Shown here one piece after another: positions 1 through 7,836 of a stretch of 7,891 bases of DNA. The notes below the pieces were generated by a model. It was not told the origin of the DNA and ran no database searches. It saw nothing but the letters and a program-made list of their open reading frames with translations. The position numbers were made by a program, and so were the translations under genes. Numbering within the stretch: the first letter of the stretch is position 1; every line of letters starts with the position of its first letter. Origin of the DNA: Candidatus Eiseniibacteriota bacterium (GTDB lineage: Bacteria > JAFGKV01); NCBI GenBank assembly GCA_025453925.1, contig JALOPK010000149.1:1-7891 (forward strand). The letters are read 5' to 3'.

Positions 1-1334
1 GCCAACGCGGTGACCAGCTCCCGTGCCACCAGATCGTAGTACGATCCCGCCGGATGCGGGTCGAACGGCACGAGTTGCTCCGGCCGCGGGGGGGAGATCC
101 CTCGGCTCGCGAGGTCAATGACGTGTATGCCGTATGCTGCCAGCGAGTCGGCCATTGCGCGCGTCTGCGGGTCGCCGAACGGCCAGATGAACACCACGAA
201 GGATCCTTCGAACTGGCGCCGGTACTCCATCGAGGACCGCCGCACCACCGACAGCAGCGTCTTCCATCCCCCGGGACTCGCCCCGGTGATCCGATCCATC
301 CGCCGTGCGAGGTAGTCCAAAGTCGGCGATGATCTGAGAAGCCTGAAGCAGGCCATCCGCCGTGGCTGGGACCCTGCGAAGGATCCGACTCGTTGCGGCG
401 TTCCGTCCTTTATCTCGTATCGGGGGAATTGCTCGCCCCATGCCGTGGCCGAGTATGATCCGTTCACCCGTCGGACGTGATCCGGGATAACGCCGTAGAC
501 CATCAGCCCTCTGGTCTGCGGCACCTGACTCGCCAGTTCACCTGACTCCAGAAGAGCCAGCATCTGCTGGGGCCCCCAGCCGATGAAGCCGTAGTTGTAC
601 ACGGCGATCCCCGCAGTCAATCTCGCGAAATGGGCGGGGAGCGTCTGATCATCCGCGACGTTCTCCCCGAATGTGCAGGAGTTGCCCATGAAGATGGTGT
701 GGCTGACCGGTGTGTCGGCCGGGTCCTCGGGAGTGTGTCGACGTCCGAACCGGTCGAAGCTGCACGATACCTGATAGATGCGATTGCGGTTGCGCCAGCA
801 CGCGATGGAAACGGTGGTGTCGGCAAGCGGGCGGTATCCGAGCATCGAGTCGGAGCGCCAGTAGCGCGGGGGATGCTTCTCGAGAATCACCGCGGGGGTT
901 GGGGATCGCCAGAGCATGTCGGCCGCCGAGATGAAACCCAAGAGCAGGGACACCGAGAGGCATGGCCCGGCGAAGACCCCGCCCCCGGCGTCGATGGTCG
1001 CGCTGAGCGCCAGGACCAGGAGCAGCTGAACACGGGGCAGAAGACTGTGGTGATCGTAGCAGAGCGTCAGGTAGAGGAGAGGGAGCCAGCAGGCATACCG
1101 TGCCATCGTCGCAGGGGTCGAGGGGAGGCGTCGACGGGTCGCTTCCGCAATGCCGAGCGCGACGCCCGAGTACACCAGCAGGATGACCGTGGCCGCGGAA
1201 ACTCGCCAATCCTGCCCCCGCATCCTTGCCCCGGCGATGTTCGCCACCCAGGCCAGGGTGGTCATTGGATACAGGTAGGGCCACCGCATGGACAGATTCC
1301 CGATAGGTGGGGCGTTCGACGTAGTGTCGACCAT
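1..1334 (-). CDS. Membrane-anchored SGNH/GDSL-type hydrolase, 3' end cut by window edge
   Basis: This open frame has no stop from 1334 to the window edge; 444 residues are visible. Residues about 20-140 hold four or five hydrophobic segments, for example VSAATVILLVYSGVALGI and VQLLLVLALSATIDA. A soluble domain follows. It has an SGNH block I-like motif FMGNSCTFGENV (candidate nucleophile Ser219), a conserved-looking NYGFIGWGPQQMLALLE stretch, and a late FDPHPAG motif (Asp425, His427) that fits the block V catalytic Asp/His. The canonical GDS is GNS here. Such domains are esterases or acyl/acetyl transferases, often acting on lipids or envelope glycans; the substrate here is unknown. The protein probably ends soon after the window, since block V is normally near the C-terminus. 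The start is uncertain: ATG 1334 has no clear ribosome binding site, and ATG at 1289 or 1265 are alternatives. Opposite-strand frames give arginine-rich, unrecognisable protein. Confidence 0.85.
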   Translation of the reverse strand, partial: MVDTTSNAPPIGNLSMRWPYLYPMTTLAWVANIAGARMRGQDWRVSAATVILLVYSGVALGIAEATRRRLPSTPATMARYACWLPLLYLTLCYDHHSLLPRVQLLLVLALSATIDAGGGVFAGPCLSVSLLLGFISAADMLWRSPTPAVILEKHPPRYWRSDSMLGYRPLADTTVSIACWRNRNRIYQVSCSFDRFGRRHTPEDPADTPVSHTIFMGNSCTFGENVADDQTLPAHFARLTAGIAVYNYGFIGWGPQQMLALLESGELASQVPQTRGLMVYGVIPDHVRRVNGSYSATAWGEQFPRYEIKDGTPQRVGSFAGSQPRRMACFRLLRSSPTLDYLARRMDRITGASPGGWKTLLSVVRRSSMEYRRQFEGSFVVFIWPFGDPQTRAMADSLAAYGIHVIDLASRGISPPRPEQLVPFDPHPAGSYYDLVARELVTAL

Positions 1335-1418
1335 GACCGCGCGCGAATCTGGCAGACTCGTGCTGTCAGTGCCGGCAGAGAACTCAGACGTGCATCGGCG
1401 ACGGGGAGAGGGAATGCA
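1335..1418 (-). other. Spacer between tRNA-Cys and the SGNH gene, no terminator seen
   Basis: About 84 bases separate the CCA end of tRNA-Cys from the first candidate start of the SGNH hydrolase gene. I find no GC hairpin followed by a T run and no convincing -35/-10 pair. Transcripts started at the tRNA promoter could therefore read into the hydrolase gene, unless a factor-dependent terminator or a weak promoter lies here. This is inference from absence of signals. Confidence 0.4.
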
Positions 1419-1493
1419 TGGAGGCGGCACCCGGATTCGAACCGGGGGATAAAGGATTTGCAGTCCTCTGCCTTACCACTTGGCTATGCCGCC
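1419..1493 (-). tRNA. tRNA-Cys (anticodon GCA)
   Basis: The full cloverleaf can be folded on the minus strand. The acceptor stem is GGCGGCA with TGCCGCC, and the discriminator base is U73, the usual cysteine identity base. The D arm is GCC/GGC. The anticodon arm is GAGGA-CTGCAAA-TCCTT with GCA in the loop. The T arm is CCCGG/CCGGG around TTCGAAT. The 3' CCA is encoded at 1419-1421; without it the gene is 1422-1493. It follows tRNA-Gly after a 4-base spacer, so the two are surely processed from one transcript. Confidence 0.97.
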
Positions 1494-1497
1494 GCAC

Positions 1498-1573
1498 TGG
1501 AGCGGGAGACGGGACTCGAACCCGCGACAGTCACGTTGGCAACGTGAAGCTCTACCAACTGAGCTACTCCCGC
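1498..1573 (-). tRNA. tRNA-Gly (anticodon GCC)
   Basis: The cloverleaf folds completely on the minus strand. The acceptor stem is GCGGGAG with CTCCCGC, with discriminator U73 and an encoded CCA at 1498-1500. The D arm is GCTC/GAGC. The anticodon arm is TCACG-TTGCCAA-CGTGA with GCC in the loop. The T arm is GCGGG/CCCGT around TTCGAGT. It reads GGC and GGU codons. It is the first gene of a two-tRNA unit, starting about 15 bases after the predicted transcription start of a strong promoter. Confidence 0.97.
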
Positions 1574-1595: not shown

Positions 1596-1624
1596 AGTAT
1601 AGGATGCTCCCTCGCGCCGGTCAA
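1596..1624 (-). promoter_or_regulatory. Sigma70-type promoter of the tRNA-Gly/tRNA-Cys unit
   Basis: On the minus strand TTGACC (1624-1619) is followed by exactly 17 bases and then TATACT (1601-1596), each close to the bacterial -35 and -10 consensus. The likely start of transcription is around 1588. The stretch just after the -10 box, GCGTCGG, is GC-rich. Such discriminators are typical of stable-RNA promoters under stringent (ppGpp) control in well-studied bacteria; that regulation is inferred here. The -35 box contains the TGA stop codon of comEC (1623-1621), so promoter and upstream gene share bases. Confidence 0.85.
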
Positions 1625-3834
1625 GGCCGACCGTGCTGCCGCCATGAGATCCTGCCGGCATCGCACTCGACGGTCACCGCGCCCTGACTGGTCGCGGCCA
1701 CGCGGTAGCCGGCGTGGGCCAGGTCGCGCAGGAGATCCTCCTCTCCCGGTGTGCCGCCGCCGACCACCACCAGGCGAGGCTTGGCCCTCCGGAGCAGGAG
1801 GTGGGAGGGGGCCATGTCCCGGGACGGTCCGATGTAGAGCACATCGGTCGACTCCACCGCCGCCCAGGTGGCGCACTGGGCATCGGAGCGCCAGCCGCCA
1901 TCTCCCGCAACCAGGACGCGAAGTCCGCACGCCCACCGGATGAGCAGCCCGTCCAGGGAGTGGCCTCCGGCGCCCAAGGGAGTCAAGGTGCATCGATCGC
2001 CGAGCGCGAGGCTCGGCATGTCGGACCACACGGACATGGCGACGCCGGAGTCGGTGGACGTCTCGCTCCCCGTCGGCACGACGGTCTGCGCAGCGGCGAG
2101 CATTTGGAGGAGAGTGTCCACCGCGGCCGAGCGTGCCGCACGGCCGCTGGTCGCACCCACGAGCCGCGCGCCATCGAAGCGGCGGAACCGCAGGTGGTCG
2201 CACGCAACGCGGGCGGCGGTCGCCGGCCGTCCCGCACCCGGGTCCAGAATGCCGATGATGCCAGGCTCCTCCGCCACCACGCAGTTGCCATGATGCACAT
2301 GGAGGAAGGTCACACGGTCCATGCCCGTCCATGGGTTCGCCATTGCCCACACCAGCCACGTAGACGCGACCAGCGCCGCACCCGCCAAAGCCGGTGTCAG
2401 CGGCCTCGACCACAGTCTACCCACGCGGGCCCCCACCACTGCGCCCCAGGCTAACGTCATCAACCACAGACGGTAATCGCCGAATGACAGAACGGAAAGC
2501 GGCAGCGCCGCAACGCCATCTGCCAGCGAGAGCAGCATCCCGGCGGTGAGTTCGGTGAGGCGTCCACACCAGGCAGCGAGGCTCGTCCACAGGATCTCGG
2601 CCAGCGAAGTCGCCATCGCCGCAGCGATCAGCACAGTCGAGAGGAACGCAGCCGGGACGTTGGCAAGGAGGCTGTAGGTCGGCCACTGTCGGAACCACCA
2701 CAGCAGGATGGGTAAGACCCCGAGCTGTGCGGACAAGGAGGTCAGCACCGATCCCGCGCACCATCGCAGGGGTCTCGGCCAACCGGCGATAGGTCGGAGC
2801 ATCGGCGGCATAAAGACCAGAATGCCCAGGGTCGCGCCGAATGACAACTGAAAGCCGGGATCCCACATCCAGCGCGGCTGCGCGATCAGAAGAACAATGC
2901 CCGCCAAACCGATGCTGTTGATGCCTTCGGCCCGCCGGCCGAGGACGAGCGCCAGCAGAACCGTCGCGCTCATTATGCCCGCCCGCAGCACCGGTGCGTA
3001 TGACCCCACAAGGAGGACATACCCTGACACCCCCAGCAGGGCGACGAGCGCAGGGTACCGGTGCCCTGGCAGCGCCACCGCGCCCAGTGCGTAGATGAGC
3101 GCGGCCACGATGCCAACGTGGAAGCCCGAAATGGAGAGGATGTGCACAATCCCCGCGTCGCGGAAACTCCCCATGGTATCCTGATCCAGCAGGTCTCGAA
3201 TCCCGATCAGCATGGCCACCGCCAAGGCCCCCTTCTCTCCCCTTGCCCTGCCGGACAGGGTGGTCGCGACATGGTCGCGGGCGGTTTCCCGAGCCGACCG
3301 TTCACCGGCATACCGGAGAAGCTCCCCGACCTGGCGTACCCAGAGCCGGCCGATGATGCCTCGCTGCCGGAGCAGGGAACTCCAGTCGGTCTCACCCGGA
3401 TTTGCCGGTGGAAGCAACGGACGCAATGATCCGGTCACCGCCAGGGTGTCACCCTGCTGGAGGCGCAGGCTCGTATCAGGAAAGAACGCGCGAACCGTAA
3501 GGCCGATCCGGCTATCGTCCAGATCGAGCAGTGCGAGATCGGTGGTCATATGCCGTTCCGTCAGCCGCGGGGGCGATGACGCGATGCCGCGAAGGGACAC
3601 TTCCTGAGCCCGCACGCTTTGCCCCACCTGATCGACCATGCGGGAAGGGACTCCCAACGCGGCCCCCGCGGCAACCAAAGCCAGCGCCAATCCCTTGTCT
3701 ACACGGGGCCACGGCAACAGAGGGAGAGCAAGCGCCGTCCCGGCGCTCAGCACGAGAATGAAGGGGGGAGAAGCGCGGGCGATGAGAAGGCCGAAAGCCA
3801 GGAGGATAAATGCCCGGAAAGCCGGCCGTCTCAC
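1621..3834 (-). CDS. comEC: ComEC/Rec2 DNA-uptake channel with degenerate MBL-like domain
   Basis: ComEC forms the inner-membrane channel that brings single-stranded DNA into the cell during natural transformation. With the GTG start at 3834 it has 737 residues, a normal length. N-terminal membrane helices are followed by an OB-like region (about 80-180). The polytopic competence domain comes next, with the signature HILSISGFHVGIVAAL near 235 and WDPGFQLSFGATLGI near 325. A C-terminal metallo-beta-lactamase-like domain covers about 508-737. That domain keeps LDPGAG (530) and AGDGG (643). However, the usual DVGQGD is HVHHGN, the HxDxDH metal motif is GATSGRAARS (about 560-569), and the usual HHGS is IGPSRD. 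It is therefore probably catalytically dead. I chose 3834 because GGAG lies 9 bases upstream and the first membrane helix follows at once. The frame is open up to ATG 4068; GTG 3900 is another option, overlapping the preceding gene by 29 bases. Confidence 0.93.
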   Translation of the reverse strand: MRRPAFRAFILLAFGLLIARASPPFILVLSAGTALALPLLPWPRVDKGLALALVAAGAALGVPSRMVDQVGQSVRAQEVSLRGIASSPPRLTERHMTTDLALLDLDDSRIGLTVRAFFPDTSLRLQQGDTLAVTGSLRPLLPPANPGETDWSSLLRQRGIIGRLWVRQVGELLRYAGERSARETARDHVATTLSGRARGEKGALAVAMLIGIRDLLDQDTMGSFRDAGIVHILSISGFHVGIVAALIYALGAVALPGHRYPALVALLGVSGYVLLVGSYAPVLRAGIMSATVLLALVLGRRAEGINSIGLAGIVLLIAQPRWMWDPGFQLSFGATLGILVFMPPMLRPIAGWPRPLRWCAGSVLTSLSAQLGVLPILLWWFRQWPTYSLLANVPAAFLSTVLIAAAMATSLAEILWTSLAAWCGRLTELTAGMLLSLADGVAALPLSVLSFGDYRLWLMTLAWGAVVGARVGRLWSRPLTPALAGAALVASTWLVWAMANPWTGMDRVTFLHVHHGNCVVAEEPGIIGILDPGAGRPATAARVACDHLRFRRFDGARLVGATSGRAARSAAVDTLLQMLAAAQTVVPTGSETSTDSGVAMSVWSDMPSLALGDRCTLTPLGAGGHSLDGLLIRWACGLRVLVAGDGGWRSDAQCATWAAVESTDVLYIGPSRDMAPSHLLLRRAKPRLVVVGGGTPGEEDLLRDLAHAGYRVAATSQGAVTVECDAGRISWRQHGRP

Positions 3835-3843
3835 GGACCGGTG

Positions 3844-3847
3844 CTCC
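3844..3847 (-). promoter_or_regulatory. Candidate ribosome binding site for comEC
   Basis: GGAG on the minus strand lies 9 bases before the GTG at 3834. The upstream alternatives, GTG 3900 and ATG 4068, lack a comparably placed purine-rich site and would overlap the 80-residue gene. The call depends on this short motif only. Confidence 0.4.
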
Positions 3848-3871
3848 GCACCCGCAGAGAAGGAGGCTTGG

Positions 3872-4114
3872 CTATCCCTCTCCGGTTCTTCGCCCACCAC
3901 GAGGGTTGAATGAGCCTTTGGGCCGATCCACGAAGGATCGAGCAACTGAAGAGGCGATCGAACCTGCGATGGCCACGGCAGCCATGTGCAGAAGGGCGAT
4001 TCCTTCGGGCACCCGCCCGAATCGGAGCGCGCAGAGGGCTCCGAGGCAGGCAAGCACGAATGCCGCAAGAACGAAGAGGCCGCGAACTCGCTTGAGAGTC
4101 GCGGCCACCTTCAT
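3872..4114 (-). CDS. Hypothetical small membrane protein, two predicted helices (80 aa)
   Basis: I do not recognise a family. The 80-residue protein has a short basic N-terminus (MKVAATLKRVRG), a hydrophobic segment at about 13-33 (LFVLAAFVLACLGALCALRF), a second at about 39-58 (IALLHMAAVAIAGSIASS), and a hydrophilic, basic, glycine/arginine-rich tail after residue 62. This looks like a helical hairpin in the inner membrane. It starts 24 bases after the slipin stop, with GGGGG 6 bases before the ATG. It ends 37 bases before the preferred comEC start, so it fits the operon. Against it: part of the DNA is also open in the comEC frame, which extends upstream to 4068. However, that extension (residues with many Ser/Pro/Cys) looks like out-of-frame translation, while this frame looks like a protein. 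A helper of slipin/NfeD or of ComEC is possible but unsupported. Confidence 0.65.
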   Translation of the reverse strand: MKVAATLKRVRGLFVLAAFVLACLGALCALRFGRVPEGIALLHMAAVAIAGSIASSVARSFVDRPKGSFNPRGGRRTGEG

Positions 4115-4138: not shown

Positions 4139-4909
4139 TTACGCCTTGACCGACGGGCCCTGGAGCTCGGCCATCTTCATGAATGGCTTCAACAAATCAA
4201 TGGGAATCGGGAACAAGGTCGTCGAGTTGTTCTCCGAGGCTATCTCTCGAAGGGTCTGCAGATACCGCAGTTGGAGCGCCGCGGGATGCTGGTCGATGAT
4301 GTCGGCAGCCTGACCAAGTTTCTCGGCAGCCTGGAATTCACCCTCCGAGTTGATGATCTTGGCGCGCCGTTCCCGCTCGGCCTCGGCCTGCTTGGCCATG
4401 GCTCGCTGCATGTCGGCAGGAAGATCGACATGCTTGACCTCCACGTTGGCGACTTTCACTCCCCAGGGTTCGGCATGTCGATCGAGAATCTCCTGGAGTT
4501 GGCTATTGATCTTGTCCCGTGCCGACAGGAGTTCGTCCAGTTCGGCCTGGCCGAGCACGCTCCGAAGCGTGGTCTGAGCGAGCTGACTCGTGGCATAGAG
4601 ATAGTCTTCGACCGCGACTATCGCCTTGGCCGGGTCGATCGCCCTGAAATAGACGACCGCGTTCACCTTCACAGAGACGTTGTCACGCGTGATCACATCT
4701 TGCGGTGGGACATCAAGCACGACAGTTCTGAGACTCACCTTGACCATCTTGTCAACGATGGGGATGAGGAGGATGAGTCCCGGGCCCCTGACTCCAACCA
4801 TTCTCCCCAAACGGAATATGACGCCGCGCTCATACTCCCGAAGGACACGCACGGAATTCCCAAAGATGAAAAGCGCAAGCAGGACGATGACGGTCATACT
4901 GTAAGGCAT
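4139..4909 (-). CDS. Slipin, stomatin-like SPFH domain membrane protein
   Basis: Slipins are prohibitin/stomatin relatives that oligomerise on the membrane and organise lipid domains. The 256-residue protein has one N-terminal membrane helix (about 5-17) and an SPFH domain (about 20-185), with family motifs such as [42 protein letters not shown] and [17 protein letters not shown] charged helical or coiled-coil stretch follows (about 165-200, [19 protein letters not shown]). Near the C-terminus lies a hydrophobic patch, [13 protein letters not shown], around 228-240. In the archaeal Pyrococcus horikoshii pair the NfeD-type protease PH1510 cleaves a C-terminal hydrophobic region of the stomatin homologue PH1511; this patch is the likely equivalent (inference). 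nfeD lies directly upstream with a 65-base gap. Start 4909 is chosen because GGAGG sits 8 bases upstream; the longer form from ATG 4951 adds 14 residues without a good binding site. Confidence 0.95.
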
Positions 4910-4917
4910 CGGCAAAA

Positions 4918-4922
4918 CCTCC
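4918..4922 (-). promoter_or_regulatory. Ribosome binding site that sets the slipin start
   Basis: GGAGG on the minus strand lies 8 bases before ATG 4909. It is the strongest Shine-Dalgarno match in the window and argues for the 256-residue slipin over the 270-residue form starting at 4951. Confidence 0.75.
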
Positions 4923-4974
4923 ATTTCAGCAACGTACCATGATGGCCCCAATTGGAGACAGGCACACCTTCGGG

Positions 4975-6243
4975 TCAGAAGCCGGATCGTCGAACCAGAA
5001 GCCTCATCCCTTCGACCTCCTTCACGATGATCTTGGCACCTGCTTCTATGGGCTCATCAGCCCCGGCAAACCAGAGCTCGCCGGCCAGGAAGACCTTGCC
5101 TTCCGGCGAAAGCGGCTCGATCACCTTGCCCACCATGCCCACGAGCCCTTCGGCCCCCGTGACTGGCCGTCTTCGCTGCGCCCGGATGCCCGCGCCTACC
5201 GCGAAGAGAAAGAAGCCCGCTGTGACCGCCACCGCAGGAATAATCACCGAAAGCGACACGCGATACACCTCCTCTGCACTGTCGAACAGCATGAGACTTC
5301 CTAATACGAGGGCCACGATCCCGCCGAGCGTCAGCAGGCCGTGGCTGGTGATCTTCACCTCGGCGAGGAAGAGGAGCATTCCGAATCCGATGAGGAGAAC
5401 TCCCACGTAGTTCACCGGCATCATCTGCATCGCGAAGAGCCCAACGAGGAGGAGAATGCCGCCCACGACTCCCGGGAGAATGCTCCCCGGATTGGAGAGC
5501 TCGAAGTAGAGGCCATAGAATCCGAGGATCATGAAGATGTAGGCGAGGTTCGGGTTGGCGAGCTGGTGCAGCAGCCGGTACCGAAGACTCATGGGTATCT
5601 CTTTCACGATGGCGTCCCTGGTGGCCAGCAGGCGCGTCGTGTCACCCAGCGCCACCGTGCGACCGTCCAGGAGGGTCAGAAGGCTGCCCCGGTCCCTTGC
5701 CACGAGGTCAATCACCCCCAGGGCCAGGGCCTCCTCGGCGGTCGCGGATACGCTTTCGCGCACCGAGTTCTCATACCACGCGGCGTTTCGGCCCCGCTGC
5801 GACGCAAGGCCCCGGATCTGAGCGGCCGCGTCGTTCTCAGCCTTGCCGGACATGACGCTGTCCATGGCGCCGCCGATGCCGACGGGGTGCGCCGCGCCCA
5901 GGTGGGTTCCAGGGGACATTGCCACGACGTGAGAGGCCGCGCAGATGAACGCCCCTGCGCTGGCTGCCCTTGCTCCCGCAGGAGTGACATGCACCACCAC
6001 GGGGACCCGCGCGTTCAATATGGCTCCCGTGATGACCCGCATGGACTCCATCAGACCGCCGGGCGTATCCAGCTCCAGCACCAGCAGCTCGGCCGGCGCG
6101 GCTTCCGCTCTTTCGATGGATGCGGTGACATACCGGGCCGTGGCCGGATCTATGGCGCCGTCCACCCGAGCAACAAGAACGGTCGCGGCATGGGACGCCG
6201 CGCACATCACCATCAGCACACACCCGCTCCGCCACGCTCTCAT
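4975..6243 (-). CDS. nfeD: NfeD long form: membrane-bound ClpP-class serine protease
   Basis: The 422-residue protein has all three parts of long NfeD (NfeD1b) proteins. A signal peptide ([20 protein letters not shown]) precedes a ClpP/crotonase-fold protease domain (about 22-215) with [18 protein letters not shown] (nucleophile Ser95) and MSGKAEND (general base Lys134). These match Ser97 and Lys138 of the characterised Pyrococcus PH1510 protease. Five hydrophobic segments follow (about 232-352), including [26 protein letters not shown]-terminal NfeD OB-fold covers about 362-422 ([20 protein letters not shown]). The protease domain should face the periplasm or cell exterior and the OB-fold the cytoplasm. 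It sits just before the slipin gene, the standard arrangement for a protease and its SPFH partner. The ATG is 2 bases after the stop of the 83-residue gene (TGATCATG), with GGAAGG 10 bases upstream, so translational coupling is likely. Confidence 0.96.
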
Positions 6244-6245
6244 GA

Positions 6246-6497
6246 TCAGAAGACCTTCCGTCCCCCCCCAACAATCCCGTTGAGGGCCTCCTTGAAGTAG
6301 TCGGTTGTGCTCACGACGTCCTCGGGGAGAGATTCACGGTATCGCCCGTACGCTTCGAGCACCACCACCCCCAAGCGCGCCGGGAGGTTTCCCTCCTGGA
6401 GCCCCTTCTGGATCTGCTCCTCGTTGCTCAGAGCAACCTCCAGCGCCAGCCACCGGGCCAACAACCGGGCACCCTGGTGGATAAGGTCTTCAGCCAT
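6246..6497 (-). CDS. Hypothetical small helical protein between accC and nfeD (83 aa)
   Basis: I do not recognise the family. The 83-residue protein ([25 protein letters not shown] at the start) looks soluble and mostly alpha-helical. It has an amphipathic N-terminal helix, a central [30 protein letters not shown] and a [10 protein letters not shown] helix, then a Gly-rich basic end. No signal peptide or membrane helix is seen. The ATG at 6497 overlaps the accC end by 8 bases, with GGGGAG 5 bases upstream, and the stop is 2 bases before nfeD, so it is tightly coupled on both sides. The frame is open to ATG 6557, but that extension lies inside accC and is unlikely. An 8-base G run near the 3' end is a weak point for frame errors. 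Its place suggests a partner of biotin carboxylase or of NfeD; no function can be assigned. Confidence 0.75.
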
Positions 6498-7836
6498 TCC
6501 TGCTCCCCATGGTTTCCACGAAACTCGTGTCAAAATGCCCGCTGCGGAATCGTTCATCGACCAGAACCTTCAGGTGGAAAGGTATGGTCGTCTTCACTCC
6601 CTCTATCACCATCTCGTCGAGGGTGCGTATCATTCGCGCAATCGCTTCGTCCCGATCCACCCCATACGTGATCACCTTGGCCAGCAGGCTATCGTAGTTG
6701 GGGGACACCGTGTACCCCGCATAGAGATGGGTGTCGATGCGGACGCCCGGGCCGCCCGGTTGATGAAAGGCCTCGATGTTCCCCGGGCAGGGGGCGAAGT
6801 TGTTGTCGGGGTCTTCGGCGTTGACCCTGCACTCGAGAGCGTGGCCCTGCATGCGAACCTCGTGCTGACGCATGGGCAGGCCCTCCCCGGCGGCAAGACG
6901 GATCTGCATCTTCACCAGGTCAAGACCGCAGGCCAGTTCCGTGACCGGATGCTCCACCTGAATGCGCGTGTTCATCTCTATGAAGAAGTAGTTGCCGCTG
7001 TGATCCAGCAGGAACTCCATGGTGCCCAGCCCGAGGTAGTTCACTGCCCGAGCGCCCTTGACCGCAACGGCGCCCATCTCCGCCCTGAGTTCGGGGGTCA
7101 TTGCCATCGAGGGGGATTCCTCGAGGAGCTTCTGGTGGCGGCGTTGAATGGAACACTCCCGTTCGCCGAAGTGGATGCAGTCAATGCCATCGCCCGCGAC
7201 CTGGAATTCGATGTGGCGCGGTTGGCTGATGTAGTGCTCCAGGTACAGCCGCCCGTCGCCGAATGCCAGTTCCGCCTCACGATTCGCCGCACTGAAGGCC
7301 CGTTCGAGATCCGCCTCCCGCTCGACCATTCGCATACCTCGGCCGCCGCCGCCTGCGACGGCCTTGATGAGGATAGGGTAGCCCACGTTTTGAGCGATTT
7401 CGCACGCCTGTGGAATCTCACTGACCGGCCCGGGACTGCCGGGGATCACCGGCACCCCGGCGGCCCGCATGGTCTCCCGGGCAAGAGCCTTGTCTCCCAT
7501 AACCCTCATTGTCTCGGCCGTGGGGCCTATGAGCGTGAGGTGACAGGAGGCGAGCACCTCAGCAAACTCGGGGTTCTCCGCCAGGAACCCATATCCGGGA
7601 TGCACCGCGTCGACATTGGCGATCTCCGCGGCGCTCACGATCCTGGGTATGTTGAGATAGCTCTCCGCGCTGGCCGCGGCGCCGATGCACAAAGCCTCGT
7701 CGGCGAACCGCACCGCCAGGCTGTCGGCGTCGGCCTGGGAGTAGACGACGACGGTCTCGATGCCGAGTTCGCGGCATGCCCGAAGGATGCGAAGCGCGAT
7801 CTCACCACGGTTGGCGATAAGGATCTTCTTGAACAT
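6490..7836 (-). CDS. accC: Biotin carboxylase subunit of acetyl-CoA carboxylase
   Basis: AccC carboxylates biotin on the carrier protein AccB, using ATP and bicarbonate, in the first step of fatty acid synthesis in the cytoplasm. The 448 residues match the single-domain enzyme (E. coli AccC has 449). The N-terminal domain starts [20 protein letters not shown] and includes [15 protein letters not shown]. The ATP-grasp domain has Lys116, Lys158, the glycine-rich AGGGGRGM loop (161-168), RHIEFQV near 210 and HQKLLEE near 236. The catalytic stretch [15 protein letters not shown] (286-300) carries Glu287, Asn289, Arg291 and Glu295, and metal ligand Glu274 is in LGTMEF. The C-terminal domain has [12 protein letters not shown]. 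All key residues are present. The length rules out a pyruvate or propionyl carboxylase fusion. The ATG lies 8 bases after the accB stop, and the end overlaps the next gene, so it is mid-operon. Confidence 0.98.

Follow-up and report, generated by a model that had tools for sequence, protein, structure and literature searches.

A conserved MBL-fold domain, predicted to be catalytically dead, at the C-terminus of ComEC in Fermentibacterota

The ComEC protein encoded in the window, as the whole 7,891-nucleotide stretch analysed is called here, ends in a domain which keeps the MBL fold and has lost most of its metal ligands. The same loss is found in all three Fermentibacterota genomes compared, where the domain and the remainder of the protein are conserved to about the same degree. 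With a probability of about 0.7, this C-terminal domain (CTD) is a catalytically dead pseudo-nuclease, which would have arisen in an ancestor of the Fermentibacterota family and would have been kept under purifying selection as a structural or DNA-guiding part of ComEC. The three genomes are that of the window (G000, contig C153; a 3.9 Mb draft, 82% complete), G001 and G002.

The ComEC frame, at 1621-4068 on the minus strand, is open throughout. Its upstream end is a TTG at 4068, which adds an unsupported extension; the GTG at 3834 is the likely true start, since homology with the relatives begins at about that position. The gene and its domains are located as follows:

1621..3834, minus strand: ComEC, probable true extent (GTG start, 737 aa; Pfam DUF4131 and Competence; relatives align from the GTG)
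3328..3768, minus strand: DUF4131 (OB-fold) domain of ComEC (Pfam PF13567, E 2.9e-13)
2434..3213, minus strand: Competence (channel) domain of ComEC (Pfam PF03772, E 1.5e-57 and 9.5e-59)
1624..2322, minus strand: degenerate MBL (nuclease-like) CTD of ComEC (hhalign comparison with intact domains; AF2 model)

Both the channel domain of ComEC and the OB-fold domain, common among these proteins though not universal, are present. They are the only Pfam matches in the protein, Lactamase_B being absent, and the alignment to TIGR00361 stops at residue 608 of 815. Pfam would therefore file it with the ComECs without a recognised MBL domain (DC profile, Pimentel and Zhang 2018); unlike those, it does carry an MBL domain, in degenerate form. 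The nearest named relative, 63% identical, is from a Candidatus Fermentibacteria MAG.

Retention of the fold is indicated by both sequence and structure comparisons. In hhalign, 223 columns of the last 232 residues of ComEC can be matched to a set of 19 intact ComEC nuclease domains (probability 97.8, E 9e-13). As a single sequence, the window CTD matches the intact profile with 94% probability (E 1e-7), and the three Fermentibacterota CTDs, taken singly, with 94-96%; the reversed window CTD scores 0.3%, and no reversed or shuffled version of the three exceeds about 2%. The AF2 model of the CTD most resembles 9ic4, the crystal structure of the nuclease domain of Moorella glycerini ComEC (Foldseek E 4e-9; VIA Z 17.4 with an rmsd of 3.2 for 219 residues). 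The model, built from two sequences, is of low confidence (mean pLDDT 60), so that a rebuilt metal site is structurally still conceivable. A profile of the degenerate CTDs alone matches, in the PDB, only two ComEC chains, and weakly (E about 0.02). The hhalign result, the match to 9ic4 and the reversed and shuffled controls together reject the idea of an unrelated domain: by fold, the CTD belongs with the ComEC MBL nuclease domains. It shares fold and position within ComEC with the Moorella domain (M. glycerini 9ic4; M. thermoacetica CTD), which however keeps HxDxDH and is a Mn-dependent nuclease (PMC8579336, PMC12455585), while HxDxDH is missing from the window CTD.

The four motif regions involved are listed below, with approximate codon coordinates:

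2284..2301, minus strand: motif I region, HVHHGN instead of DVGQGD (sequence; alignment)
2134..2163, minus strand: motif II region, GATSGRAARS instead of THPHxDH (alignment; T, S, R, R common to all three relatives)
1894..1908, minus strand: motif IV region, AGDGG, Asp kept (Glu in G002) (alignment)
1816..1833, minus strand: motif V region, IGPSRD instead of HHGS (alignment; G, P, R common to all three relatives)

Only the motif-IV Asp is retained, out of the eight ligand or HHG positions intact in the 19 comparison ComECs. Motif II has lost its two His and its Asp, motif III its Asn, and HHGS its His: S, R, A, R occupy the motif-II positions that are H, D/H, D, H in intact domains, and GPSR stands at the HHGS position. 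The register of motif II shifts by one between aligners; a ligand set is absent in every register. The invariant ligands are kept by 19 of 19 intact domains and not by the three Fermentibacterota ones, the 19 having been picked for carrying the motif, so that their intactness is no independent result. The dinuclear ligand set of the ComEC MBL nuclease domain (HxDxDH, Asn, Asp, HHGS His) is, in sum, not there, and the CTD is predicted to be inactive as a metal-dependent nuclease. The preliminary description of this DNA had reported an in-frame, full-length domain with LDPGAG and AGDGG, carrying HVHHGN, GATSGRAARS and IGPSRD in place of the expected motifs, and had expected it to be inactive as a metal hydrolase. 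The open frame bears out the first point, and all five motifs are present as quoted; the alignment confirms the replacements and lends support to the predicted inactivity.

Relatives with intact motifs, which would have pointed to a recent error or a pseudogene, were looked for in G001 and G002, and neither is of that kind. Their ComECs, 63% and 40% identical to that of the window, share the ligand loss, with ATSGRPARH and MGPWRD in one, TTSSRSHRA and VGPRRT in the other, for motifs II and V: all three proteins feature TSxRxxR where intact ones have THxxxDH, and GPxR where these have HHGS. Residues identical in the three are T, S, R, R in motif II and G, P, R in motif V; the conservation of this arginine pattern, estimated from three sequences only, about equals the CTD average. 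Identity of the window CTD is 62% to G001 and 37% to G002, between the values for the channel (75% and 49%) and for the OB domain (54% and 32%). The dN/dS of the CTD, proposed earlier as a check, is about 0.2 between G000 and G001 (NG86), a value limited by a dS near saturation, and indicates that the domain is maintained. Sequencing error, recent error and pseudogene are rejected, because the loss is common to both relatives, the frame is intact and conservation of the CTD is close to that of the other parts of the protein. Conservation in relatives devoid of the motifs argues for a structural or binding role, one of the two options named in the preliminary description.

In the working model of ComEC, OB fold and MBL domain flank the channel mouth and jointly select the strand to cut (PMC12455585); according to Silale et al., an inactive domain may guide DNA while a cytoplasmic motor slowly unwinds it (PMC8579336). 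A dead yet conserved domain would fit the guiding role so proposed. The window CTD would bind neither of the two metal ions and would not cut DNA; the conserved arginines would now occupy the former metal-ligand sites, and the domain may have been kept for its presumed place next to the OB-fold domain and the mouth of the channel, where we infer a role as guide or clamp, helping to hold the DNA. If DNA is imported, the second strand would be removed by some nuclease, or peeled off by pulling from the cytoplasm; how the non-transforming strand is removed in cells whose ComEC has no active nuclease is a recognised problem in the field (PMC8579336). Should the domain be useful without catalysis, its guiding role would be separable from the cutting one.

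A different, possible though doubtful, reading is that the lineage is no longer transformable, ComEC being kept for another role or being en route to loss, with a relaxed nuclease domain. In L. pneumophila, transformation is lost when catalytic residues are changed to alanine, and in B. subtilis catalytic mutants transform less well (PMC12455585); given the former, a dead domain may point to a cell that does not transform instead of to a guide. The search for com and pilus genes, suggested earlier, gave a mixed outcome. ComEA was not found in the three Fermentibacterota genomes, where TIGR00426 and PF12836 match only Tex-like or other large proteins, and DNA import by the window ComEC is for this reason unproven; the ComEA of these genomes may, on the other hand, be too divergent for the models, and G000 is incomplete. 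DprA and ComF-like proteins are present in 3 of 3 genomes, as they are in most control genomes. PilT exceeds the cut-off in G001 and G002, against loss of transformability, and has no match over the cut-off in G000. Conservation of channel, OB domain and CTD alike also speaks against relaxation. The literature search found no paper pairing Fermentibacteria with competence.

The preliminary description had further reasoned that, if this ComEC still imports DNA, strand degradation must take place elsewhere, the alternative being the structural or binding role mentioned above. A pneumococcal-type substitution by EndA finds no support: an Endonuclease_NS (PF01223) homologue is detected in 0 of the 3 Fermentibacterota genomes, that of the window being 82% complete, while 4 control genomes match. 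A candidate does exist in the form of a standalone ComEC-like MBL protein, found at the following positions:

L040 1423-2301; L041 1-798; L042 1414-2361: standalone MBL protein (profile match)
L056 3097-10163; L055 94-6695: MacAB-TolC-type operon headed by the standalone MBL protein

That this protein takes over from the dead domain in degrading the non-transforming strand is improbable. It occurs in 3 of 3 Fermentibacterota genomes, matches the ComEC nuclease profile over its full length (E 1e-37 to 6e-41), has all metal ligands intact in each, and is apparently exported, since the G001 and G002 copies, judged by eye, have an N-terminal signal peptide or lipobox; the copy in the window genome is cut by the contig end. 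Its gene, however, is not near com genes: in G002 it is the first of an operon with TolC, an HlyD-type adaptor, an ABC ATPase and MacB-like permeases, and the gene order in G001 matches. Among the matches listed, moreover, the standalone protein is as common in genomes without an intact fused domain (18 of 63) as in those with one (22 of 73; Fisher p 0.85), so that its mere presence is no evidence of compensation. Neither operon context nor co-occurrence across these 136 genomes with ComEC links it to that protein, and its role as substitute nuclease is unsupported. There is also little likelihood that the former metal centre was rebuilt as an arginine pocket (TSxRxxR with GPxR), gripping DNA phosphate without cutting and acting as a clamp or strand separator, with strand selection by peeling or by a nuclease in trans; the invariant residues of motifs II and V give hints of such a pocket, not proof. 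Binding of metal, or catalysis, through replacement residues is very improbable: H8, C14, D27, D42, D124, D147 and H174, which lie outside the motifs, do not vary among the three relatives, and the motif-IV Asp is kept in two of them, but no HxHxDH-like cluster is seen, and most ligand positions in motifs II and V hold Ser, Arg or Ala or fall in a gap.

The pseudo-nuclease reading has a precedent, and its novelty is lower than implied by the preliminary description: an inactive ComEC MBL domain is already described for S. pneumoniae (PMC5031224, PMC8579336, PMC12455585). There, as in the window, a full-length domain is retained with most ligands substituted and is predicted to be inactive (PMC5031224, PMC12455585). 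The substitutions in S. pneumoniae are milder, His giving way to Asn and Asp to Glu (PMC8579336), whereas motifs II and V of the window ComEC are replaced outright; S. pneumoniae, in addition, has the EndA nuclease, of which the three Fermentibacterota genomes have no detected homologue. A conserved pseudo-nuclease in ComEC, in a more extreme form, is a well-supported extension of this case to another phylum.

Loss of ComEC nuclease ligands is, judging from the alignments, recurrent. In a survey of 145 genomes, almost all from different families, ComEC is present in 136, and 73 of these have a fused domain matching the intact profile, among the matches listed (to about E 1e-20). CTDs related to the profile yet without several ligands are found in G036, G049, G066 (partial match), G077 and G140: losses like that of Fermentibacterota thus occur in at least five other families sampled. 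The ComEC C-terminal regions of G011, G018, G064, G106 and G127 do not match the intact profile significantly and were left out of the count of degenerate domains. Degenerate nuclease domains without several metal ligands lie in the ComEC C-terminal regions of other families at L008, L024, L091, L092 and L095. Pfam misses some dead ComEC nuclease domains, so that some proteins scored as domain-less carry a degenerate one.

As to the surroundings of the gene, the order BioCarb-NfeD-SPFH-ComEC is common to all three Fermentibacterota genomes. The other features of the window are:

4139-7836, minus strand: SPFH protein, NfeD protein, small unknown protein and biotin carboxylase, upstream of ComEC (order kept in both relatives)
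1419-1573, minus strand: tRNA-Cys (gca) and tRNA-Gly (gcc), side by side, directly downstream of ComEC
3-1430, minus strand: membrane protein without Pfam match, whose C-terminal half has GNS and D-x-H-like motifs and looks, by eye, SGNH hydrolase-like
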